In this document: one piece after another, positions 2,839 to 54,466 of the stretch
How positions within the stretch are numbered: position 1 is the stretch's first letter
How the letters are laid out: each line of letters begins with the position of its first letter
DNA from: Candidatus Rokuibacteriota bacterium
GTDB lineage: Bacteria; Methylomirabilota; Methylomirabilia; Rokubacteriales; CSP1-6
DNA length: 62,912 bases
NCBI GenBank assembly: GCA_023248995.1
Contig: JAHFDN010000016.1
Coordinates: 1 to 62,912 of the forward strand
Direction: 5' to 3'
Position numbers and translations under genes: made by a program
Notes under the pieces: generated by a model
Told to the model about the DNA's origin: nothing
Seen by the model: the letters and a program-made list of their open reading frames with translations, nothing else
Databases searched by the model: none

Positions 2839-3267
2839 TCACTCGACGGCGACACCGGCCACCGTGAATGTCCCGTCGCGCTCCTCGAGCGTCACCGTCC
2901 CCTTCCCTTTTCGCTCGGAGCCCCCCGCCTTGACCGTGATCTCGTCCACGGTCACACCCTTCACCCTACCCTCCACGCGGACCGCCGAGAGGCCCCGGAA
3001 CGGGAAGATCAGTTCGGCGTCCGCTTTCTTCGCCTCCGCCTCCAGCGCGTACTCTGTCCCGCCGACCTTCACCGTCACCTTGCTGCCCGCCCGGGCCTTG
3101 ACGGCTTCCCAGTCCTTTTTCCCCCAAGCCAGCAGAAACTCTTGGGCCGTCTGGATGTGCAGAGTCGCCCCGGGCGCGGGAGCCTCCTTCTTTTCCTGGG
3201 CCCAGGCGGGATTCGACCCAAGAAGGACAGCGAGCCCCATCACGAGAATTGCCGCGAGCCAAGCCAT
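2839..3267 (-). CDS. small exported protein of unknown function
   Basis: 142 aa from the ATG at 3267, chosen because a GGGAGG/AGGAAAGG Shine-Dalgarno lies just upstream and the protein then opens with a classic signal peptide (MAWLAAILVMGLAVLLG, then an Ala-x-Ala-like site before QEKK). Upstream in-frame ATGs at 3306 and 3435 would bury this signal. The mature part is charged, beta-rich and Lys/Glu/Val-rich with no motif I recognise. It sits 6 bases upstream of maoC on the same strand, so it may be the first gene of the acyl-CoA operon, although its role looks unrelated. A promoter is visible at 3324-3353. Confidence 0.6.
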   Translation of the reverse strand: MAWLAAILVMGLAVLLGSNPAWAQEKKEAPAPGATLHIQTAQEFLLAWGKKDWEAVKARAGSKVTVKVGGTEYALEAEAKKADAELIFPFRGLSAVRVEGRVKGVTVDEITVKAGGSERKGKGTVTLEERDGTFTVAGVAVE

Positions 3268-3323
3268 GGTCGCCTTTCCTCCCTTCCTGCTGTGCTTCGT
3301 CTCCATTTTCCCGAACGCCCCCG

Positions 3324-3353
3324 ACTCTACTTGTGCCCCGAGCACCTTGTCAA
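3324..3353 (-). promoter_or_regulatory. sigma70-type promoter for the exported-protein/maoC operon
   Basis: On the minus strand, TTGACA (3353-3348) and TAGAGT (3329-3324) are separated by 18 bases, about 57 bases before the ATG at 3267. The -35 is perfect. The same TTGACA/TAGAGT hexamer pair recurs divergently at 3520-3548. Confidence 0.55.
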
Positions 3354-3427
3354 TTGCCCAAGTCCCGGAAATTTCAGCACTCAACCTAGCTCCAAAACAC
3401 GGTTCCGCTCCAAAAATCAGCTTGATT

Positions 3428-3459
3428 TTATCCACAAATTAGCCACAACTTGTGGATAA
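3428..3459. promoter_or_regulatory. cluster of three DnaA boxes (DnaA-binding site)
   Basis: TTATCCACA (3428-3436, perfect), TTAGCCACA (3439-3447, one mismatch) and TGTGGATAA (3451-3459, a perfect box in reverse orientation) lie within 32 bases. The cluster is in a locally AT-rich gap between two divergent promoters, about 35 kb from dnaA. It may be a DnaA titration or regulatory site, or part of an origin. Confidence 0.65.
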
Positions 3460-3519
3460 TTGCGCCCATGAGCCCTAGATCTGGTGTCAAGACAGAATGG
3501 CAAGCCAAAAGCCCTTCTG

Positions 3520-3548
3520 TTGACAGGGGTTTGGGCTTCGTCTAGAGT
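3520..3548 (+). promoter_or_regulatory. sigma70-type promoter for the DGQHR-domain gene
   Basis: TTGACA (3520-3525), a 17-base spacer and TAGAGT (3543-3548), 20 bases before the ATG at 3569. The perfect -35 and ideal spacing make this one of the clearest promoters in the window. With so short a gap the leader would be only about 13-15 nt. Confidence 0.6.
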
Positions 3549-3568
3549 GAGGGTTCGGGAAAAAGCCC

Positions 3569-4702
3569 ATGATCACTGTTCCAGCGCATCGGGTAAAGCA
3601 ATTCGGTCTGGAATTCTACCAGGCCTCGTTTTCGGCCAAGGACATCGATCGCCTGGTCAAGTTCGAAGTCCTGGACTATTCAGGCGGCTTGCCCGAGGAG
3701 GCCCCCAAACCGAAGCGCGTCTCCCGCTCCCGCGTCAACTGGGAGATGCTGGAAAAGCGGATCGGCGAGAGCGAGGCTGCCTACCAGCGGCCGGTCATCC
3801 GGCGAAAGATCGAAGAGCTCGTCTCGTACTACCGGGATTGCAGGGAGGCGGGGACCCTGCCGGCGATCCCAGGCGCGGTCATCATCACCTCGGAGAAGCG
3901 CTTCACGTTCACGCCGCTGGCGAGCCACCACGACCTGGGCCTCCTGCAGATCCCCGAGGAGCACGGCGTGCTGAGGGTCCTGGACGGCCAGCACCGACTC
4001 CTGGCTCTCCACGCGCTGACCCAGGCCGGCGAAGTGTTGGGGATCGAGGTGCCGGCGGTCTTGTTCGACACGCTGGACGCGCGGCAGATCGTGGAGCTCT
4101 TCGTCACGATCAACGCCAAGCACACCCGTCTCAACCCCTCCCACATCGTCAGCCTGGCCGGACGCAAGCTCTACCCCGACCCCAACCAGGCCATGGCCCA
4201 CGATGTGATCCGGTCCCTGAACGAGGACGACACGTCTCCGCTCCACGGCGACATCAAGATGCTCGGCACGGGGCGCGGCCGCGTTTCCCAGGCGCCCCTG
4301 GCCGAGGAGATCGTGGATTTCCTGGAGACGGTCCAAAACGTCGGCGGCAGCGCCCGGATCCAGGAACTCCGCCAGGGTGCCAAGCGGTTCTTCCTGAACT
4401 ACGTGAAGGCGATGGGCGGCGTCTTCGCGACCGCCTGGGCGGGCCGGAAGTACTCGATCAAGACGGGCGCGGCTCTCCGAGCGTTCATCCGGGTGGCGCC
4501 GGACGTCATGGCGCGGGCGCGGGAGCTCCGCAAGGATCCGTTCGACCTTCACGCCATCCGCGAGGCGATCAAGCCCTGGGGCTCCCGGCTCGGCGACCGT
4601 CGTTTCGAGACCGAGGGCGAGTGGAAGCAAAAGCTGGCGGGCGGCACCCGGGGGACCGTGGAGACGCTGACGCGAGAGCTCCGCGAGGCCCTTCGAAGCT
4701 AG
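3569..4702 (+). CDS. DGQHR-domain protein (DndB-related)
   Basis: 377 aa. The DGQHR signature is at residues 139-143 ([11 protein letters not shown]), followed by [12 protein letters not shown] at 178-189. Both are shared with DndB and other DGQHR-domain proteins, which belong to the ParB/sulfiredoxin-like group and are mostly linked to DNA modification or defence. No dndC/D/E, dpd or other defence genes are adjacent, so this is an orphan. It has its own strong promoter and sits beside a DnaA-box cluster. It converges with greA: the two stop codons overlap inside one CTAG. Function unknown; nucleotide or DNA binding is a reasonable guess. Confidence 0.8.
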
Positions 4703-12588: not shown

Positions 12589-13398
12589 TCACTCGCGGGG
12601 GTTTTCCTCCTCGGGCACCACCCGGCGGGCCACGGTAATGAACCCGGTATGGGCCACCATCCGATGGAACGGGCGGACGGAGGACGCCTCGATGTTCCAC
12701 GGGCGGAAGAGGGTCTCGAAGGTCTCCACCAAGCCGTAGGCCGGGTGCCGGCGGAGCGCCTCGCTGAGCTGGTGGGACTGGATGATGGTGGGCACATAGG
12801 ACAGGAAGATGCCCCCGGACCTGAGGGTCTTCGCCACACGTTCAACCAACTGCCAGGGTTCGGGGAGGTCCAGGATCACGCGATCAACGGGCGCCTCGTC
12901 GGCGATCCCCTCCTCCACCGGGCAAAACCGGACGACGAGGTTCGTGACCTCTCCCAGGCGCGCCCGGATGTTGGCCAGAGCCCGTCGGGCGAACTCCTCG
13001 CGCTGCTCATAGGTGATGACCTTCCCCTCGGGCCCGACCGCCCGGAGCAGCGCCAGGGTGAGGGCGCCCGATCCGGTCCCCGCCTCCAGCACCCGGCAGC
13101 CCGGATAGACGTCCGCCCAGAAGACAATCATCGCCAGGTCCTTCGGATAGATCACCTGGGCCCCCCGCGGCATGTCGAGGACATACTCGGCCAGCGTGGG
13201 GCGGAGGGCGAGGTATCGCATGCCGAGCGACGAGCGCAGCCAGCGGCCGTCAGGATGACCGATGATGGCGTCGTGGGGGATCCAGCCGCGATCGGAGTGG
13301 AAGGTCTCGCCCTTTCTCAGAAGGAGAAGGTGCCGATTTCCCCGCTGGTCGATGAGGAGAACCTGCTCGCCGTCCTGGAAGGCTTCAAGCACGCTCAT
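12589..13398 (-). CDS. trmI: tRNA (adenine-N1)-methyltransferase, TrmI family
   Basis: 269 aa class I SAM methyltransferase. Motif I is VLEAGTGSGALT (residues 103-114). The N-terminal barrel ends with RPTLAEYVLDMPRGAQVIYPKD, typical of TrmI, and the catalytic-region motif is VDRVILDLPEPW. It methylates A58 (and in some species A57) in the T-loop of tRNA. The C-terminus is slightly longer than the core family. It lies 42 bases upstream of the ppiD-like gene on the same strand. Confidence 0.9.
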   Translation of the reverse strand: MSVLEAFQDGEQVLLIDQRGNRHLLLLRKGETFHSDRGWIPHDAIIGHPDGRWLRSSLGMRYLALRPTLAEYVLDMPRGAQVIYPKDLAMIVFWADVYPGCRVLEAGTGSGALTLALLRAVGPEGKVITYEQREEFARRALANIRARLGEVTNLVVRFCPVEEGIADEAPVDRVILDLPEPWQLVERVAKTLRSGGIFLSYVPTIIQSHQLSEALRRHPAYGLVETFETLFRPWNIEASSVRPFHRMVAHTGFITVARRVVPEEENPRE

Positions 13399-13453
13399 CG
13401 CACGACCCGACGAGAGTTATAACACATGGCGACCGGCGGGGGGAAGTCGTGGG

Positions 13454-14662
13454 TCAGGCGCGCCGGGGCTCGGGCAGGAAGAGCGCCGCGACGAAGCCCA
13501 GGAGCGGCAGCAGCGCCGAGATCCAGAGGGCGCTCATCAGCCCCAGGTGATCGGCCACCCAGCCGAGCGCGGTGACCCCCAGGCCCCCCGCGCCGATGGC
13601 GAAGCCCACGATGAGCCCCGAGGCCATGCCCGGATTGCGAGGCATGTAGGCCTGGCCGAGCACGACCGAGACCGTGAAGGTGGACACCAGGACGAACCCC
13701 AGCGCGCCGAGGATGACGAAGCTCATCGCGCCCCGGACGGCAAGGAACGCGATGGCGAGCGGGGTCGCGAGCAGGAACACGCTGACGACGTAGCGGCGAA
13801 CCCCCACGCGGTCGGCCACGGGCCCGGCGACGAGCGTCCCCGCGGCGCCGGCGCCCAGAAACACGAAGAGCAGCGTCCCGATCAGGCGCGGGTCGCCGTG
13901 CAGGACGTCGAGATAGTAGAAGGGCACGAACGTCGCGAACCCGAGCTGGGTCCACGAGCGGAGCGCGACCACGAGGAGCAGCAGGCTCATGCCTCCGACC
14001 ATGGTTCTGGGCGCGGACGCGACGCCCGCCTGTGCGCGGGAAGCGGGCGGTGCTGACAGTCCGGGGAGCGCCGCCATGAGCACCGCCGCCACGACAATGC
14101 CCGGGAGCAGAAGCCCCACGCTTCCGGGGAGGCCAAAGCCCGTCACGAGCGCTGTGATCAGCGGCGGGCCGATTGAGATTCCGATGTTGCCCCCCGTGGA
14201 GAAAATGGACAACCCCGTCGCCTTGCGATCGCCCGCCACGCGCGTCGCCGTCCGATAGCCTTCGGGATGGTAGGCGGCGATACCGAAGCCCGAGATGACC
14301 ACCAGCGCCAGCACGAGGCCGTAGGACGGCGCGAGCCCTGTCAAGCCGATCCCGAGGGACGAGAGGAACACCGAGATCGGCAGGAGCCACCGGCGTGCCG
14401 TCCGGTCGGCCAGGTAGCCGAAGAGAGGCTGGATGAGAGAGGAGGTGACGTTGGCCATGAGCACGATGGTCCCCGCGGCCGCGTAGGACAGACCGAGAGC
14501 TGTTCTGAGGAACGGCAGGATCGCGGGGAGCGACCCCTGGTTGGTGTCAACGACCAGGTGCCCCACGGCCAGGAGCCCGAGCAGGCGCATGTCGGGCCTG
14601 ACGCGCTCCGCCGGCGCCGCGGCCATCGGGGCGGGCAGAGGGGCCGCGCGGTCGGGCGTCAT
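13454..14662 (-). CDS. MFS transporter, fosmidomycin-resistance (Fsr)-like
   Basis: 402 aa from the ATG at 14662, giving a cytoplasmic lead of about 25 residues. Twelve hydrophobic spans are visible. The early segment VDTNQGSLPAILPFLRTALG and the loop AYHPEGYRTATRVAG resemble Fsr-type major-facilitator exporters; the inter-TM2/3 signature appears as GYLADRTARRWLL. It follows the next MFS gene by 16 bases on the same strand, so two MFS genes are in tandem. The substrate is unknown. Confidence 0.85.
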   Translation of the reverse strand: MTPDRAAPLPAPMAAAPAERVRPDMRLLGLLAVGHLVVDTNQGSLPAILPFLRTALGLSYAAAGTIVLMANVTSSLIQPLFGYLADRTARRWLLPISVFLSSLGIGLTGLAPSYGLVLALVVISGFGIAAYHPEGYRTATRVAGDRKATGLSIFSTGGNIGISIGPPLITALVTGFGLPGSVGLLLPGIVVAAVLMAALPGLSAPPASRAQAGVASAPRTMVGGMSLLLLVVALRSWTQLGFATFVPFYYLDVLHGDPRLIGTLLFVFLGAGAAGTLVAGPVADRVGVRRYVVSVFLLATPLAIAFLAVRGAMSFVILGALGFVLVSTFTVSVVLGQAYMPRNPGMASGLIVGFAIGAGGLGVTALGWVADHLGLMSALWISALLPLLGFVAALFLPEPRRA

Positions 14663-14678
14663 AGGCCCATATCCTACA

Positions 14679-15848
14679 CTAAACCTCGCGTCCTCGGACC
14701 GGATGATGTACCTGCCAGATCCCCGCAATGCCCGCCAGCAGGACCAACACCACGAACCCGAACGCCCAGAGGTAACTCCCGGTCAGATCGAAGAGCGCGC
14801 CCCCCGCCCAAGCCCCGATCGCCTCGCCCGGACCGGCGGCCAGAACAATCCAGCCGTAGATGGCGCCGAAGTTCTTCCCCGCGAAAACGTCGGCCGCCCG
14901 CGACGCCGTGACGATGCCGCTCGACCCTTGGGCCAGGCCGTAGAAGAGCACGTAGCCCGCCAGCCACCCCGGCCAGCCGGTCCACGCTAGGAGCCCGAGG
15001 TTCGCGATCCCCACCACGGCGCTCGCATAGGTCAGGGTGAGCGTCTCGGCCCGCCCGAGACGATCGGAAAGCCATCCGGTCAGGAGTCGACCGGCAAGGC
15101 TCACCAGGCTCACGGCGGCGAAGGCGGCCGCGGTCGCACGCGGCGAAACCCCCACTCCGACGGCAAAGGCCACCATGTGGACGTTCATCAGGGGAAACCC
15201 CATCGCCGAGAAGAACCGGACGGCCACGAGCCACCAGAAGGCCGGCGCCCGCGTCGCGCGCGCGAGCGTCCACGCCTCCTGGGGCCACGGGCCGGCGGCG
15301 GCCTTGTCCCGGCAAGCGCGCCGGGCCGCCGCCGCGGGCAGACGCTGAAAGGCGTTGGCCGGAATCACGAGGACGACGAGGAGCGCCGCCCACACGAGGA
15401 GCGATGACCGCCAGCCATACCGGCTCACGAGCCACTGGGCGAGGGGGATGAAGAGAAAGGCGCCGAGGCCGGTGCCCAGGTCGGCCACCGCGATCGCCCG
15501 CCCCGAAGCGCCCGGGTACCAGAGTGCCGCCACGACCATGTTAGGCTGGCTCCCGAGGGCCGCGAGGCCGAGTCCGCCGATCAGCCCATAGGTCACGAAG
15601 AGGGCGGAAAGGCTCCCCGCCTGGCTCGCGAGGATAAACCCCGCCGCCGCCAGCAACGCCCCAGCGTGGAACAGCCGTCGCGGGCCCAGCCGGTCCAGGG
15701 CGTGGCCGATCAAAGGCCCGCCGAAGCCGCCCAGGAGCAGGACCGCCGACTGGATCCCCGCGACCTCCCCCCGCGAGGCGCCGAACTCTTCGATGAACGG
15801 CAGGTACAGGAGGGCGAAGGCGATGACGATGCCGTTCTGGATCGCCAT
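14679..15848 (-). CDS. MFS transporter, oxalate/formate antiporter-like (OFA/MCT group)
   Basis: 389 aa from the first ATG, but TM1 homology clearly starts earlier: the in-frame upstream codons read PWSLAIAALT directly before the ATG and continue the membrane span back to the stop codon of the acyl-CoA dehydrogenase gene, which is in the same frame. No ATG, GTG or TTG exists in that stretch; CTG at 15911 is the only plausible earlier start. The segment FIEEFGASRGEVAGIQSAVLL and the loop HALDRLGPRRLFHAGA fit the OFA/monocarboxylate group. Proximity to glutaryl-CoA dehydrogenase hints at an organic-acid substrate. Confidence 0.82.
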   Translation of the reverse strand: MAIQNGIVIAFALLYLPFIEEFGASRGEVAGIQSAVLLLGGFGGPLIGHALDRLGPRRLFHAGALLAAAGFILASQAGSLSALFVTYGLIGGLGLAALGSQPNMVVAALWYPGASGRAIAVADLGTGLGAFLFIPLAQWLVSRYGWRSSLLVWAALLVVLVIPANAFQRLPAAAARRACRDKAAAGPWPQEAWTLARATRAPAFWWLVAVRFFSAMGFPLMNVHMVAFAVGVGVSPRATAAAFAAVSLVSLAGRLLTGWLSDRLGRAETLTLTYASAVVGIANLGLLAWTGWPGWLAGYVLFYGLAQGSSGIVTASRAADVFAGKNFGAIYGWIVLAAGPGEAIGAWAGGALFDLTGSYLWAFGFVVLVLLAGIAGIWQVHHPVRGREV

Positions 15849-15914
15849 CGTGAGCGCGGCAATGGCGAGGCTCCAGGGGCCGCGCGTGGAAGCGTCCGGG
15901 AGGTCGTTCAGTGG

Positions 15915-17090
<1,176 letters not shown>

Positions 17091-36235: not shown

Positions 36236-37327
36236 CTAAATCCTCATAGGCATTATAACACAGAAGTACTCCTCGCCCTCCCAGCTTCTGAAGATCCCGG
36301 GGCTCATTGCGTCTTTTAACTCGACGACGACCTGCTCGGCGTCGAGCGCGCCCAGCGCATCCAGCAGGTACCGGGAGTTGAATCCGATGGTCATCTCCTC
36401 GCCCGTGTAGTCCACGGACAGCGTCTCCTCCGCCTCCCCAAGTTCCGGATTGTGCGCCGCCAGCTTCAGGGCTCCTGCCGCGAGGACCAGTTTCACGGGT
36501 TTCGTCCGTTCCTCGGACAGGACCGACACCCGGCGAAGGGCGGCCGCGAGCGCCGTCCGGGAGAGGACCAACCGGCAGGGATGCCCTTTCGGCACCACCT
36601 GCTCATAGTTCGGGAATTGCCCCTCGATGAGACGGGCCAGAAGCAGGAAGTTCGGCATCCTCAAAATGAACTGATTTTCCACCAGCGCCAGCTGCACCTC
36701 CTCACCGACGCCCAAGACCCGCACAATCTCCTGCACCGCTTTCCGCGGCACAATGCCGCTTCCCGGAGCACCCTCGGCGAGGGATCGAGAACTGACGGCC
36801 AACCGGTGCCCATCGGTTGCAACCAGCCGGACCCGCCCGGCCTGGATGATGAACAGCACGCCGTTCAGCGCGTACCGGCTCTCATCATGCGAGATCGCAA
36901 ACGCCGTCTGCGCGAGCATCTCCTTGAGCACCTTCCCATCCAGCGAGACCCATCCCGGGGGCGATGTCGGGACCACGGCGGGAAAATCCTCGGCGGCCAG
37001 GCCGACCAGCTTGTAGGACACTCCCCCGCAGCGAAGCAGAACCCAGGCATTTTCCTGCACCTTCAAGGACAGCACACCTGACGGCAACTCCTTCACGATC
37101 TCACCAAGCTTCCGCGCGGAAAGGGTAATCGCACCCCTGGCCGCGACCTTGGCCGGGACCTCCACGCGCGCCCCGACGGCCAGATCGGTCGCGCTCACCC
37201 GCACAGAGTCCCCCTCAGTCTCGAGAAGCACATTTGCCAGGATGGGAAGTGTCTGCCGAGGCTCCACGATGTTCTGCACCATCTGCAGCCCCTTCGAGAA
37301 GGCGTCGCGCTCGATCTCCACTTCCAT
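36236..37327 (-). CDS. dnaN: DNA polymerase III beta sliding clamp
   Basis: 363 aa with the three-domain clamp pattern: MEVEIERDAFSKGLQMVQNI at the start, FAISHDESRYALNGVLF in domain 2, and the C-terminal CVIMPMRI. The dimer encircles DNA and tethers polymerase. It is preceded by GGAGG 5-6 bases before the ATG. The 171-base gap to dnaA includes an AT-rich stretch (37345-37385) that probably holds its own promoter. Confidence 0.97.
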   Translation of the reverse strand: MEVEIERDAFSKGLQMVQNIVEPRQTLPILANVLLETEGDSVRVSATDLAVGARVEVPAKVAARGAITLSARKLGEIVKELPSGVLSLKVQENAWVLLRCGGVSYKLVGLAAEDFPAVVPTSPPGWVSLDGKVLKEMLAQTAFAISHDESRYALNGVLFIIQAGRVRLVATDGHRLAVSSRSLAEGAPGSGIVPRKAVQEIVRVLGVGEEVQLALVENQFILRMPNFLLLARLIEGQFPNYEQVVPKGHPCRLVLSRTALAAALRRVSVLSEERTKPVKLVLAAGALKLAAHNPELGEAEETLSVDYTGEEMTIGFNSRYLLDALGALDAEQVVVELKDAMSPGIFRSWEGEEYFCVIMPMRI

Positions 37328-37498
37328 GGCATCCTCCGGATTCCTAGTTTTTTAGAAAAGTACTTATAAGAACTTAGTCATAAGCGTAGGCGTAGGTGAC
37401 GGGACAACGGGGAAAACGTCTAAGGGCGCGTCCTGAAAGCGCGGTCGCCAGGCTCGGGCTGGGGAGGGCGCGGGGGGAAGCCGTTGGATAGCTGTGGA
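37328..37498. other. AT-rich dnaA-dnaN intergenic gap
   Basis: The stretch 37343-37385 is unusually AT-rich for this genome and contains TTATAAG-like elements on the minus strand suitable for a dnaN promoter. I see no perfect DnaA box here, so it is a weaker origin candidate than the dnaA-rpmH gap. Confidence 0.4.
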
Positions 37499-38815
37499 TC
37501 ACGACGTGATCGCCTGGGTGAGGGTGTCGATAGTCTTGCGCAGTTTGGGGTCTTCCTGGAGGAGTCCGTTGATTTTCCCCACCGCGTGCAGAACGGTGGT
37601 GTGATCCTTCCCGCCGAAGGCGCGCCCGATCTCCAGGAGCGAAGCATGGGTGAGCTGCCGGGAGAGGTACATGGCCACCTGTCGCGGGAAGGAGATGGCG
37701 CGGGTCCGGTTCTTCGCCTTCATGTCGGAGGGCTTGATGCTGAAGAACTCCGAGACCTTACGCTGGATCTGGTCCACGGTGATCGGGCGCTCCTCTTCGC
37801 CCCAGAGGTCTGAGAGGACCTCCTGGGCCAGGTCCACCGTCATCTCCCGTCCGGTCAGGGCGCAAAACGCGATCATGCGGGTGAGGGAGCCCTCCAGCTC
37901 GCGGATATTGGATTTGATGCGGCTCGCGATCAGGTACGCGACATCGTCCGAAAAGCGCACGCGCTCGATCTCCGCCTTTTTCTTGAGAATCGCAACGCGA
38001 GTTTCGAAGTCGGGGGGCTGGATGTCGGCGATGAGCCCCCATTCGAAGCGTGAGCGGAGACGCTCCTCGATTTCCGGGATTTCTTTGGGCGTGCTGTCGC
38101 TGGAAACGACGATCTGTTTGCGAGAGTCGTAGAGGTCGTTGAACGTGTGGAAGAATTCCTCCTGGGTGCGCTCCTTCCCAGAGATGAACTGGATGTCGTC
38201 GATCAGCAATAGATCAATGGTGCGGTATTTGGCCCGGAACTCGGCAGTCCGGTCGTAGCGGATGGCGTTGATGAGATCGTTGGTGAACCGCTCCGAGGAG
38301 AGGTAGAGGACGGCCATGTCGGGGAACAGCCGGCTGATCTGGTGCCCCACGGCATGGAGGAGGTGCGTCTTGCCGAGGCCGACGCCGCCGTAGATGAAGA
38401 GCGGGTTATAGGCTTTGCTCGGGAGCTCGGCGACCGCCTGGCAGGCGGCCTGCGCGAACTGGTTGGAGGAGCCGACGACGAACGTCTCGAAGGTGTAGCG
38501 CGGGCTGAGCCCGCGGGCCGCCGAGCGGGATGTCCGGGAGGCCGGGGCCTCGGGCGAAGGCTGGCGGGCCTCAAACTCTTGGACAACGATTGAGACCTGG
38601 GGGTTTCCGCCCAGGCACTCCTGGGCCGCCGCGGTGAGCGCGCCCAGGTGGTGCTGCGCCAGCCAGTCCCGGGAGAACGTGTTCGGGGCCCCGATCTGGA
38701 CGTGGTCCCCCTCGATGGCGACCAGGCGGCTGGGACGGACCCAGGTTTCTAGGGCGGCGGCGGGCAGTCTTTGCTCAAGGGCGGACAGCAATCGAATCCA
38801 GAGGCTTTCAAGCAT
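37499..38815 (-). CDS. dnaA: chromosomal replication initiator DnaA
   Basis: 438 aa. Domain I is at the N-terminus and domain II is a short Pro/Ser/Ala-rich linker (about 84-104). AAA+ domain III has Walker A GGVGLGKT (143-150) and Walker B LLLIDDIQF. Domain IV carries the DnaA-box recognition signature GRAFGGKDHTTVLHAV. It binds DnaA boxes and melts the origin. A palindromic DnaA-box pair lies 46-65 bases upstream of its start, suggesting autoregulation. Confidence 0.98.
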   Translation of the reverse strand: MLESLWIRLLSALEQRLPAAALETWVRPSRLVAIEGDHVQIGAPNTFSRDWLAQHHLGALTAAAQECLGGNPQVSIVVQEFEARQPSPEAPASRTSRSAARGLSPRYTFETFVVGSSNQFAQAACQAVAELPSKAYNPLFIYGGVGLGKTHLLHAVGHQISRLFPDMAVLYLSSERFTNDLINAIRYDRTAEFRAKYRTIDLLLIDDIQFISGKERTQEEFFHTFNDLYDSRKQIVVSSDSTPKEIPEIEERLRSRFEWGLIADIQPPDFETRVAILKKKAEIERVRFSDDVAYLIASRIKSNIRELEGSLTRMIAFCALTGREMTVDLAQEVLSDLWGEEERPITVDQIQRKVSEFFSIKPSDMKAKNRTRAISFPRQVAMYLSRQLTHASLLEIGRAFGGKDHTTVLHAVGKINGLLQEDPKLRKTIDTLTQAITS

Positions 38816-39177
38816 TTAAGTCCTCTCCAGAACAGGCGCGAGGCAGAGTTACGCACAGAGTTATCCACAGGTGTGAATAACTGGGGCGTATCCCGGCGAC
38901 GAAGGGGTGATGGACGGCGGGGCGACGACCCATCGAAATTCGAACCCTCGTCGGCTCCGGTCGGAACGGAAAGAAACGAACACCCGGCGCAGAGGGCCGA
39001 GACGGCGCAAGGCGAGCCTGGCCATACGCGGGCCGAAGAATGCACGGTACCATAGCACGGCGACAATCGGCCAGGCAACCCCCTTCCTGGGGGGCGCGGG
39101 TCCGTCGGCCGCCTTGACTTCAAAGTTTCTGGTCAGTAGACTGGACAAGTTTTTCGACGAAGAGGAGGAGCCCTCCG
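38816..39177. other. putative chromosomal origin (oriC), dnaA-rpmH gap
   Basis: A 362-base gene-free gap between divergent dnaA and rpmH. It holds a DnaA-box pair at 38861-38880 and a weaker TTACGCACA at 38850-38858. Gene orientation switches here from mainly minus (left) to mainly plus (right). No long AT-rich unwinding element is obvious, so the call depends on synteny and DnaA boxes. Confidence 0.6.
38861..38880. promoter_or_regulatory. inverted DnaA-box pair upstream of dnaA
   Basis: TTATCCACA (38861-38869, perfect) and TGTGAATAA (38872-38880; TTATTCACA on the other strand, one mismatch) face each other with a 2-base spacer. With flanks they form a near-perfect AGTTATCCACA/TGTGAATAACT palindrome. 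Confidence 0.75.
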
Positions 39178-51365: not shown

Positions 51366-52105
51366 AAGTCGCGCAGGTGCTGCTCTACGCCCGAGACCTG
51401 AAGGTGCAGTACGACGCCACGCGCGCCCGGGAGCAGGACCTCAGGCTGGCGTATGGTCGCCTCCAGGCGGCGCACCGGCAATCCCTCCGGTATGCGGACG
51501 ACCTCAAGGGCACCCACGACCGGCTGCAGCGAGCGTTCTTTCAGAGTCTCCTCGGTTTGGCCAACGCGCTCGAGGCAAAGGATCCGTACACGCGCGGCCA
51601 CTCCGAGCGGGTGGCGCGCCTGGCCGAACAACTTGCGCTTCGCATCGGATGCTCGAGGAGCGAGGCGCGGATCATCGCCCAGGCCGGGCTGCTCCACGAC
51701 CTCGGGAAGATCGGGATGCCGGAGGCGGTCTTGCGGAAGGCGGGGCCCTTGACGGAGGAGGAGTGGAGGCTGATGCGCGAGCACCCCGTCGTGGGAGCCC
51801 AGATCGTGGCGCCGCTCGAGTTCTTCTCGGAAGGGGCCCGCATCGTTCGTCACCATCACGAGCGGAGCAACGGGAGCGGATACCCGGCGGGACTGTCGGG
51901 AGAGGCGATCCCGCTCGGAGCCCGAATCGTGGCCGTGGCCGATGTCTACGATGCCCTGACGTCGGACCGCCCCTATCGTGGTAGCCTCGGGCGTGCCGCA
52001 GCGCTCGACCACATCGAGGAGGCAGCGGGGCATCTCCTCGACCCGGAGATCGTTTCTGCATTCCTTCGGCTGGTGAGTGATGGATGTCCTGATCCGCGCC
52101 TTTGA
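51350..52105 (+). CDS. HD-GYP domain phosphodiesterase
   Basis: 251 aa from a GTG at 51350 with CCGGAGG seven bases upstream. An N-terminal helical coiled-coil segment (about 1-70) precedes the HD-GYP domain. The motifs GLLHDLGKIGMPE, HPVVGAQI, HHHERSNGSGYPAGLSG and VADVYDALTSDRPYRGSL are complete, so cyclic-di-GMP hydrolysis is likely. It is translationally coupled to the preceding receiver gene and overlaps the next membrane-protein gene. Confidence 0.93.
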   Translation: MAGEVEVAQVLLYARDLKVQYDATRAREQDLRLAYGRLQAAHRQSLRYADDLKGTHDRLQRAFFQSLLGLANALEAKDPYTRGHSERVARLAEQLALRIGCSRSEARIIAQAGLLHDLGKIGMPEAVLRKAGPLTEEEWRLMREHPVVGAQIVAPLEFFSEGARIVRHHHERSNGSGYPAGLSGEAIPLGARIVAVADVYDALTSDRPYRGSLGRAAALDHIEEAAGHLLDPEIVSAFLRLVSDGCPDPRL

Positions 52106-52907
52106 CCCGACCCCACCGATCCACCGTCCGCTCATTCCGTTCCCGTTGTGGGTGTTCCTTCCGTTCGCGGCGGTATGCCTGGTCGCCCTCGTCACCAGCC
52201 GAGCCAGCGGGCCCCCGGGGATGACCGTGCGGATTGTCGGGCTGCCCGCCTTCCACGGGGGGATGCTCGCGGCTTCCCTGGCGGCAGCATGGGAGGGCAC
52301 GAGCGGCTGGGGGCGGCATGCCTCGGGGGTGGCGCTCGTGCTCCTGGTCGCGTCGTCGGCGTGCGCTTGGATGCCGTGGGGGTGTCTGGCCTATCTCCTC
52401 CCGCCGCTCGCCGTGGCGGTATGTGCCGTTGGCCACGCCGAGTGTCGCAGGATGGGGCTGGCTCCGCCGGCTGACTGGCGCGCGCTGGGGGGCGGGGTGG
52501 CGGTCGGATGTTTTCTTGGCGGCCACCTGCTCCTGTCGGCGTCGCGGACGTTCGGCTATCCGGTGCGCTTGGAACTGCCGGCTCCCTACCTGACGGGGGT
52601 TCTCTATGACCTGGGCGCGAACGTGTTATCGGCGGAGTGCTTCTTCCGGGGCACCTTGTTCAACCGCTGGCACCGGCTTTGGGGCTTCTGGCCGGGCGCG
52701 CTGGCGGCCACAGGGCTCTGCCTCCTCCGCTATCTCGGCGACCCCGCTCTCCCACCGACCGTGGAGGTGATGGCGAGCGCGATCTTTTACCTCGCGCTCC
52801 TCTCGCTGTCGGGTTGCGCGCTCCTGTGGTACTCGGGGAGCCTCCTGCCCTCCCTCGCGGCTTCGCTCCTCTTCTTCTCGGCCTACCGGATGCTCCACGT
52901 GTGGTGA
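52080..52907 (+). CDS. multi-span membrane protein, weakly CPBP protease-like
   Basis: 275 aa, with about eight hydrophobic segments. NVLSAECFFRGTLFNRWHR resembles motif 1 of CPBP (CAAX-type) intramembrane proteases, but the usual double Glu is AE, and the motif 2 and 3 His residues are not evident. It may be a degenerate or non-catalytic member. The start is the ATG at 52080 (a GTG one codon earlier is possible). It overlaps the HD-GYP gene and the following kinase gene, so all four genes form one operon. Confidence 0.65.
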   Translation: MDVLIRAFDPTPPIHRPLIPFPLWVFLPFAAVCLVALVTSRASGPPGMTVRIVGLPAFHGGMLAASLAAAWEGTSGWGRHASGVALVLLVASSACAWMPWGCLAYLLPPLAVAVCAVGHAECRRMGLAPPADWRALGGGVAVGCFLGGHLLLSASRTFGYPVRLELPAPYLTGVLYDLGANVLSAECFFRGTLFNRWHRLWGFWPGALAATGLCLLRYLGDPALPPTVEVMASAIFYLALLSLSGCALLWYSGSLLPSLAASLLFFSAYRMLHVW

Positions 52908-54466
52908 ACGGAGCGCCCGGGATCCTCTGCGCGTTTGCGGCGGTGACGGCGGCCCTCGCGTGGAGCGACGCCGGTCCGGCGGCAGGGCTCCGACACCTCT
53001 ATCTCCTGCCGACCTTGTGGGCCGCACTCCGCTTCGGCGGTCTCGGCGGTGGCAGCGGCGGCCTGCTGGCCGCCCTGCTGCTGGCGCCGTTCGTGCTCCC
53101 CGCCATCGAGCGCCGCGGTCTCACGGGGGAGACCGTGGAGGGACTCATCAGTCTCGGTCTCTTTCCCTTCGTCGGGAGCGTGACCGGCCTCTTGGCTCGT
53201 CGCGCGAGGATCCAGACCGCCCGGTATCGCGCGCTCCTGGCGCTCCACCGGACGCTTACCGGGAGCGCAGCCCTGCCCCGCCTCCTCGAGGAGCTTGCCG
53301 AGCAGCTCAGGGACGCGCTGGAGGCGCATGCGGTCGCAATCGTGCTGGTCCCGCTCGCCACTGGGCGGCCGGTGGTCGTCGTGCGAGAGCCTGCGGCCCC
53401 GGCGTCCTCCGCCTTCGTCGCCGACTCCGCGGCCGGCTGGGTGATGCGCTCAGGGCAGCGCCTCTTCCTGGGCGATATGGCCAGCGACCCGCGCGTCCGA
53501 TCAGCCGAACCAGCCGCGGGGCCTCCCCGGCGGGTGCTCCTGCTGCCGCTTGAAGCCCGCGAGGGGCGCCTGGGCGTGCTGGCCGTCGAGCGGCGAGGGG
53601 AGTTCCCGCGCGAGCTGCGCGCCACCGCGAGATCGCTGGGCCTTCAGCTCGCGCTCGGCATCGAAAATGCTTGTCTGGCCGACCGCCTCCGCCGATTCGC
53701 CGAGGAGCTCGAGGAGAAGATTCAAGCGGCCACCCGACGGCTCAGGGAGCTGGATCGGGCGAAGTCAGACTTTGTCTCGATCGTCTCCCACGAGCTTCGG
53801 ACCCCCCTGACGTCAATCCAGGGATTCAGCGAGCTGCTCCTCAGCCGCCCGACATCGGAGGACGCGAGCGGCCGCTACCTGGCCGCCATCCATCGGGAGG
53901 CGGAGCGTCTGGGACGGATCGTCGCCGACCTCCTGGATCTCTCGCGGATCGAAAGTGGCCAGGGAGACGTCCTGCGCGTGGGGCCGCTCGCCCTCGCCCC
54001 GCTCATCGACGCCAACGTGGAGCTCTTCAGATCTCAGAGCGACTCGCACGCCATAGATCGAGAGATGCCGGATGGGCTCCCGGCGGCCCTCGCGGATCAC
54101 GACGCGCTGGATCGGGTGCTGAAAAATCTGCTCTCGAACGCCATCAAGTACTCCCCGGCCGGCGGCAGGGTCCGCGTCTGGGCGCGCCCCTGTGCCGAGG
54201 AACCGGACCGCGTGGAACTCGGCGTTGAGGACCAAGGGGTGGGGATCCCCGCTCAGGTCCGGGCGCAGATTTTTGAAAAGTACTGCCGCGTCCCTCACCC
54301 CGAGACGGGACACGTGCGGGGACTCGGCCTCGGGCTCGCCCTCGTCAAGTCGCTGGTGGAGTCCCAGGGCGGTCGGATCCGGGTCGAGAGCGAGGTGGGG
54401 GCAGGCAGCCGTTTCATCGTGAGCCTCCAGATGGTCCGGCCTCCTGCGGAGATGCACTCCGCGTAG
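52904..54466 (+). CDS. membrane-associated sensor histidine kinase with GAF domain
   Basis: 520 aa from the GTG at 52904 overlapping the previous stop (GTGA). Three or four hydrophobic segments (about 5-95) form a short membrane module. A GAF-like domain (about 115-255) and coiled coil follow. HisKA has phospho-acceptor His296 in [13 protein letters not shown]. HATPase_c has KNLLSNAIKYSPAGG, VEDQGVGIPAQVRAQIF and GLGLGLALVKSLV. The signal is unknown. It probably phosphorylates the receiver encoded at 50979. Confidence 0.92.
   Translation: MNGAPGILCAFAAVTAALAWSDAGPAAGLRHLYLLPTLWAALRFGGLGGGSGGLLAALLLAPFVLPAIERRGLTGETVEGLISLGLFPFVGSVTGLLARRARIQTARYRALLALHRTLTGSAALPRLLEELAEQLRDALEAHAVAIVLVPLATGRPVVVVREPAAPASSAFVADSAAGWVMRSGQRLFLGDMASDPRVRSAEPAAGPPRRVLLLPLEAREGRLGVLAVERRGEFPRELRATARSLGLQLALGIENACLADRLRRFAEELEEKIQAATRRLRELDRAKSDFVSIVSHELRTPLTSIQGFSELLLSRPTSEDASGRYLAAIHREAERLGRIVADLLDLSRIESGQGDVLRVGPLALAPLIDANVELFRSQSDSHAIDREMPDGLPAALADHDALDRVLKNLLSNAIKYSPAGGRVRVWARPCAEEPDRVELGVEDQGVGIPAQVRAQIFEKYCRVPHPETGHVRGLGLGLALVKSLVESQGGRIRVESEVGAGSRFIVSLQMVRPPAEMHSA

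Follow-up and report, generated by a model that had tools for sequence, protein, structure and literature searches.

Positions 3428–3459 of the window, by which we mean the whole 62,912-nt stretch of DNA analysed here, are best explained as an origin-proximal DnaA-box cluster that would act as a DnaA-responsive control site for the promoter of a DGQHR gene while also binding up DnaA, an explanation that we hold with somewhat better than even confidence. The cluster probably links DnaA to this neighbouring gene. As part of the same explanation, and with the same modest lean, we take the cluster to have been present in the ancestor of this Rokubacterial family, and possibly in that of the whole order. 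The source organism is a Candidatus Rokubacterium (Methylomirabilota) with a genome of 2.34 Mb in 57 contigs, 97% complete.

Structure and setting of the cluster

The three boxes are arranged as TTATCCACA(+)-2-TTAGCCACA(+)-3-TTATCCACA(-), with spacers in bp and a total length of 32 bp, and the two outer boxes form a 10-bp inverted repeat (TTATCCACAA ... TTGTGGATAA). An earlier note on this DNA had described two perfect, opposed boxes around a one-mismatch middle box, lying in an AT-rich gap 35 kb from dnaA. Each of these points held: the boxes are as described, the distance to dnaA measured 34–35 kb, and the lowest-GC 100 bp of the whole window is 3361–3460 (42% vs ~67%). The features of the region are as follows.

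2839..3267, minus strand: 142-aa protein with a signal-like N-terminus, found only in some cluster-bearing relatives
3324..3353, minus strand: divergent promoter-like site for the left gene, TTGACA-18-TAGAGT (consensus match only)
3428..3436, plus strand: DnaA box 1, TTATCCACA, perfect (from the sequence; relatives retain NNATCCMCA)
3439..3447, plus strand: DnaA box 2, TTAGCCACA, one mismatch (from the sequence and a 13-genome alignment)
3451..3459, minus strand: DnaA box 3, TTATCCACA, perfect (from the sequence and a 13-genome alignment)
3520..3548, plus strand: promoter of the DGQHR gene, TTGACA-17-TAGAGT, conserved, including in relatives that lost the cluster
3569..4702, plus strand: DGQHR-domain / DndB-like protein, 377 aa, the constant partner of the cluster (TIGR03187, E 3.5e-33; PF14072)

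The cluster sits in a 301-bp gap between the leftward gene for the 142-aa protein (start 3267), which matched no family in Pfam or NCBIfam, and the rightward DGQHR gene (start 3569), whose −35 element begins after 60 bp from box 3. A search of 3240–3700 for RNA elements gave no Rfam match. A promoter-like match within the boxes (TCCACA-18-GATAAT, 9/12) was discarded as a by-product of the scan, the conserved promoter being at 3520, and an NrdR-like reading by eye of a weakly conserved GATNTNGTGTC block 15–30 bp downstream of box 3 was dropped because the block was too variable. At 3510–3548 the DGQHR promoter was better conserved than its surroundings, and CCTCTGTTGACAGGGG, found around the −35 in relatives, is a near-palindrome that might be a separate operator. 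Elsewhere in the window, strong local AT skew was seen in otherwise even sequence at 13000–16000 (+0.28) and 52000–54000 (−0.29).

The DGQHR domain family is otherwise described from DNA-modification and defence islands. In this group the gene was found in 30 of 40 relatives and is a widely kept core-genome gene rather than part of a dnd island. The predicted structure of the protein had a mean pLDDT of 68, and a fold search against the PDB returned no significant match (ParB-N domains stood at ranks 3–4, E ~0.8); we therefore claim no fold-based function. A PDB sequence search with the protein gave nothing meaningful, and the collection of papers searched for a link between DGQHR and DnaA contained nothing relevant.

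Rarity of DnaA boxes in the genome

Genome-wide counts were based on pattern searches. Perfect TTATCCACA occurs four times in the genome, twice at 3428–3459, once beside dnaA and once near pyrD, while sites with at most one mismatch number 95. Composition-matched simulation gave 1.6 perfect sites and 91 sites with at most one mismatch per genome, and DnaA boxes are thus not abundant overall. Because the box near pyrD lies in a further cluster (described below), all four perfect boxes fall in three clusters. The sole head-to-head TATCCAC pair within 30 bp in the genome is the one at 3428–3459.

Conservation with the DGQHR gene

We then consider the relatives, which are soil and groundwater bacteria of Candidatus Rokubacteria / Methylomirabilota. 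The cluster was found upstream of the same DGQHR gene in 14 sampled genomes (G000, G015, G006, G020, G009, G071, G002, G019, G056, G057, AR4, CSP1-6, isolate 716 and G024, the last belonging to another family). When 60 genomes of the order were scanned with a box 2–box 3 pattern, 11 gave matches, and all matches whose surroundings were read lay upstream of DGQHR. Since the left-hand neighbour gene varies among genomes, the cluster belongs with DGQHR.

Across 13 aligned genomes, information content was 1.65, 1.66 and 1.68 bits per column in the three boxes, 0.43 and 1.0 in the spacers, and 0.25 and 0.71 in the flanks, the AT-rich flank, at 0.25 bits, being unconserved. The box spacing of 3 and 2 bp was kept in nearly all relatives. 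At the cluster, exact 9-mer DnaA boxes occur in the source genome, G015 and G024. The boxes agree with those found in the gap at dnaA, both in the source genome and in related ones, and a weak TTAC-type box is common to this cluster and the cluster in that gap. None of the 13 aligned genomes has the consensus T at position 4 of box 2, which is C or G instead. In several genomes box 1 has drifted and reads YCATCCCCA, whereas TTATCCACA is retained in the dnaA-gap boxes of G019 and G057.

The distance from the end of box 3 to the −35 element (TTGACA) was 59, 60 or 64 bp in 11 genomes, although the intervening sequence had diverged, so that the boxes stand at a nearly fixed distance from a conserved promoter. 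Among the three roles that the earlier note had offered, a DnaA-regulated promoter pair is the one best supported by these patterns, given the constant partner, the constant −35 distance and, in the window, the divergent promoter-like site.

Loss of the cluster and distance from dnaA

In a maximum-likelihood tree built from the DGQHR protein, the carriers form two clades plus the outgroup-like G024, and a clade of 13 members that lack the cluster is nested next to one of the carrier clades (support 92/85). G017 holds remnants of the cluster, and G025 and G026 also lack it. The simplest reading would place the cluster at the base of the family, as an ancestral site with one main loss. The earlier note had named absence from close relatives as a refutation; absence applies to one clade and not to the nearest relatives. 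The losing clade retains both the DGQHR gene and its promoter (TTGACA at about −38), and the cluster is therefore dispensable.

In the three carriers where it could be measured, the distance between dnaA and DGQHR was short: the window has 35 kb, G057 42 kb and CSP1-6 44 kb, the last with both genes on one 105,437-bp contig. In G057 the DGQHR-GreA-SurA block is inverted and lies on the other side of dnaA, so that proximity is kept despite the inversion. For four members of the losing clade, minimum distances derived from contig ends and dnaA contigs were ~87 kb (L113), 200 kb (L108), 72 kb (L114) and 57 kb (L125). Origin proximity and cluster loss form a single contrast on the tree, not several, and their agreement may be coincidence.

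Comparison with known DnaA control sites

The nearest known kind, on our best reading, would be the oriC-proximal DnaA-box clusters (DBCs) of Bacillus subtilis (Okumura et al. 2012, as described in PMC5295017; binding map in PMC4447404). Like 3428–3459, these consist of several boxes that lie outside but close to the origin, in some cases in a promoter region, with a few such clusters per genome, and DnaA acts there both as a titrated protein and as a transcription factor. Several close boxes, outside oriC and beyond chance, are likewise what we found here. The B. subtilis clusters differ in that they involve other genes in another phylum, and DnaA binding has been shown in Bacillus whereas it is putative at 3428–3459; ours is a single cluster whose three boxes keep a fixed geometry and which goes with a DGQHR gene.

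The strongest competing explanation, possible but in our estimate unlikely, is a DnaA control locus of the datA or DARS type, which would titrate DnaA or change its bound nucleotide, adjacency to the DGQHR promoter being incidental. Position fits such a locus: the cluster stays near the origin even after inversion and is absent where the gene lies at least 57–200 kb from dnaA. It also contains two of the four perfect boxes in the genome. Its orientation, with a single box opposed to two in tandem, is shared by the three-box cores of Escherichia coli DARS1 and DARS2 (PMC5742627, PMC4585315). DARS1 reads TTATCCACT(+)-5-TTATCCACA(-)-3-TAATACACA(-), and DARS2 has the same geometry (PMC5742627). 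Reverse-complemented, our cluster reads (+)-3-(-)-2-(-), with box I opposite II and III as in DARS, but this orientation is one of only four possible classes and hence a weak guide. The spacing differs, being 3 and 2 bp here against a fixed 5 and 3 bp in both DARS cores, and we therefore do not file the cluster as a DARS; DARS2 additionally has IHF and Fis sites (PMC5742627, PMC4585315). Promoting the release of ADP from DnaA is a further property of a DARS.

Resemblance to E. coli datA, a DnaA-box cluster on the origin side but outside oriC, also stops short of membership. The essential boxes of datA are unidirectional, flank a required IHF site and span ~260 bp (PMC5742627), whereas those at 3428–3459 span 32 bp in mixed orientation, with 2–3 bp between boxes and therefore no room for an IHF site. 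The suggestion in the earlier note of a datA-like titration site is partly supported by position, with proximity kept through inversion and the cluster absent where the gene is far, and fails on anatomy because the boxes do not all point in one direction. Further, three boxes would be a small number for titration, and a −35 distance held at 59–64 bp would be needless for a pure titration site.

Other DnaA-type clusters and the operator alternative

The 3428–3459 cluster is not the only one of its type outside the origin. A second lies at ~45495–45535 of contig C10 in G000 (L056, ~1485–1530), where ATACCCACA-2-TTATCCACTTATCCACA is followed by AATCCACA. It comprises four box-like words in a single direction, includes the fourth perfect box of the genome, and stands between pyrD and a conserved 79-aa gene (no Pfam family) that adjoins radC. 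Orthologues of this pyrD-type cluster were found in G015, G006, G020, G019 and G057 (L150, L151, L156, L158 and L161), and its pattern, with up to three mismatches, matched 22 of 60 genomes of the order, with zero control matches. A third kind, TTATCCACATTTCCACAGTTATCCACA (TTATCCACA-TTTCCACAG-TTATCCACA), lies between an M20 peptidase gene and a response-regulator gene in G015 and G006 (L147, ~1991–2017; L148, ~1946–1972), with similar words in L149 and L171. With these two further kinds found, 3428–3459 belongs to a limited number of DnaA-type clusters that are conserved, and clusters of this type are seen to recur in the group. The earlier note had held that equal clusters at many unrelated loci would refute its reading; this applies weakly, as the genome has one other extra-origin cluster, itself conserved.

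A GACGCGC-rich block follows both the third-kind and the pyrD-type clusters at a similar distance and might be part of a composite element. In G002, contig C86 (L176, 1128–1520) contains TATCCACA-GCG-TGTGGATA-GGTC-TGTGCATAG in a DARS-like orientation, ~370 bp from another box pair.

These clusters bear on a further explanation, which we consider improbable, namely that 3428–3459 is an operator bound by some other regulator, which might be the DGQHR protein itself, and resembles DnaA boxes by happenstance. The outer boxes are indeed inverted repeats of each other, boxes 2 and 3 together make up a near-palindrome (TTACCCACATATTGTGGGTAA in G056), and in several genomes the cluster deviates from the dnaA-gap consensus. 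There is also a precedent in Streptomyces lividans, where dndB is controlled by an inverted repeat near the promoter of this DndB-family gene (PMC6186775). That repeat lies near the −10, whereas ours is ~60 bp upstream of the −35, is DnaA-box-like and is not followed by a dnd operon. The operator explanation is further opposed by the exact 9-mer boxes in the source genome, G015 and G024, by the same weak TTAC-type box at the dnaA gap, by similar clusters near unrelated genes without DGQHR, and by genomes that encode an 84%-identical DGQHR protein and have no such site.

The main origin at dnaA

The main origin is at dnaA, not at 3428–3459. The window was confirmed to contain dnaA, dnaN, gyrB, gyrA, rpmH, rnpA and yidC, and the cumulative GC skew reaches its minimum near 37–38 kb, at dnaA, which upholds the earlier view that the cluster is not the main origin. 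The features at dnaA are as follows.

36236..37327, minus strand: dnaN (TIGR00663)
37328..37498, no strand assigned: dnaA–dnaN gap, probable unwinding half of oriC (AT-rich at 37336–37385; trio-like repeat)
37499..38815, minus strand: dnaA (TIGR00362, E 2.1e-168)
38849..38880, no strand assigned: three-box cluster upstream of dnaA, TTACGCACA(+)-3-TTATCCACA(+)-2-TTATTCACA(-), 32 bp (from the sequence)

The cluster at 38849–38880 probably serves as the upstream half of the origin and in dnaA control. Its strong pair was kept in nearly all relatives examined, and G033, a complete genome of the same class, has three perfect boxes in its cluster upstream of dnaA. It resembles 3428–3459 in its 32-bp length, its orientation class and its combination of strong boxes with one TTAC-type weak box, and differs in having spacers in the opposite order (3 then 2), a weak box that is terminal rather than in the middle, and dnaA as its neighbour. 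On the other side of the gene, the dnaA–dnaN gap contains a DnaA-trio-like CCTACGCCTACGCTTATGACTAAG on the minus strand (37373–37396). The gaps on both sides of dnaA look like a bipartite origin as in B. subtilis (PMC5295017). The collection of papers searched for a described origin in the phylum Methylomirabilota contained nothing relevant.

In the dnaA–dnaN gaps of relatives L064–L089, a box is followed by repeated CTAC/GAC trinucleotides (CGACTACTATGACTACG in G021), which, read by eye, resemble a DnaA-trio unwinding region in this phylum. Two long dnaA matches each were seen in G043, G047, G051, G054 and G063, ~76–81% and 72–78% identical to that of the window, reflecting either a second gene or a mixed bin.

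It is accordingly very improbable that 3428–3459 serves as a second part of the chromosome origin or as a secondary origin, and the bipartite-origin option of the earlier note falls with it. The lowest-GC stretch of the window does adjoin the boxes, but the GC skew changes sign at 37–38 kb and not at 3.4 kb, no DnaA-trio-like or unwinding repeat was read by eye beside the boxes, the AT-rich flank is unconserved, the cluster was lost in a whole clade, and 35 kb away the origin signature is already complete, with its two halves in the gaps at dnaA. Chance grouping of box-like words can be dismissed, as the earlier note had expected: the 95 one-mismatch sites do match the composition prediction of 91, but no triple within 32 bp arose in 46 simulated genomes, only ~4e-5 triples are expected from 95 scattered sites, and conservation of the boxes one by one in 13 aligned genomes already refutes it.

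Proposed mechanism and significance

Under the preferred explanation of a DnaA-responsive promoter site, DnaA would most likely bind the three boxes cooperatively as one complex, the outer two being strong and the middle one weak. From there, ~60 bp upstream of the −35, it would render the DGQHR promoter responsive to how much DnaA is present or to its nucleotide state; as the site would be replicated soon after initiation, it would also remove some DnaA from circulation. From sequence patterns we infer the binder (DnaA), a change in transcription, which could be either activation or repression, and the titration effect. Functional DnaA boxes with three mismatches have been reported in B. subtilis (PMC4447404), and this, together with the TTAC-type box also present at the dnaA gap, makes DnaA the best candidate, though not a proven one. 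The constant promoter distance and partner speak for promoter control, while the position pattern speaks for a dosage or titration effect. The 59- and 64-bp distances are half a helical turn apart, which would fit poorly with strict contact-type activation; this difference, and the fact that the promoter persists where the cluster is gone, point to modulation rather than an essential activator contact. It is a rather speculative further step to suppose that DnaA directly controls the DGQHR/DndB-like protein by way of an origin-anchored site, and that this protein takes part in replication or in chromosome control. On that view, selection would hold the cluster near the origin, and a gene that moved away from the origin would lose it.

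For a few model bacteria, DnaA control sites beyond the origin have been described, and the present cluster would be a new example that can be tracked by sequence alone through an uncultured phylum. Its closeness to the origin has survived an inversion, it has a single partner gene, and it is missing from genomes in which that gene is distant from dnaA. It therefore offers a natural contrast between clusters that act on the DnaA supply, for which position matters, and clusters that act on a neighbouring promoter, for which spacing matters. It may also provide a first lead on the role of a conserved standalone DGQHR gene.
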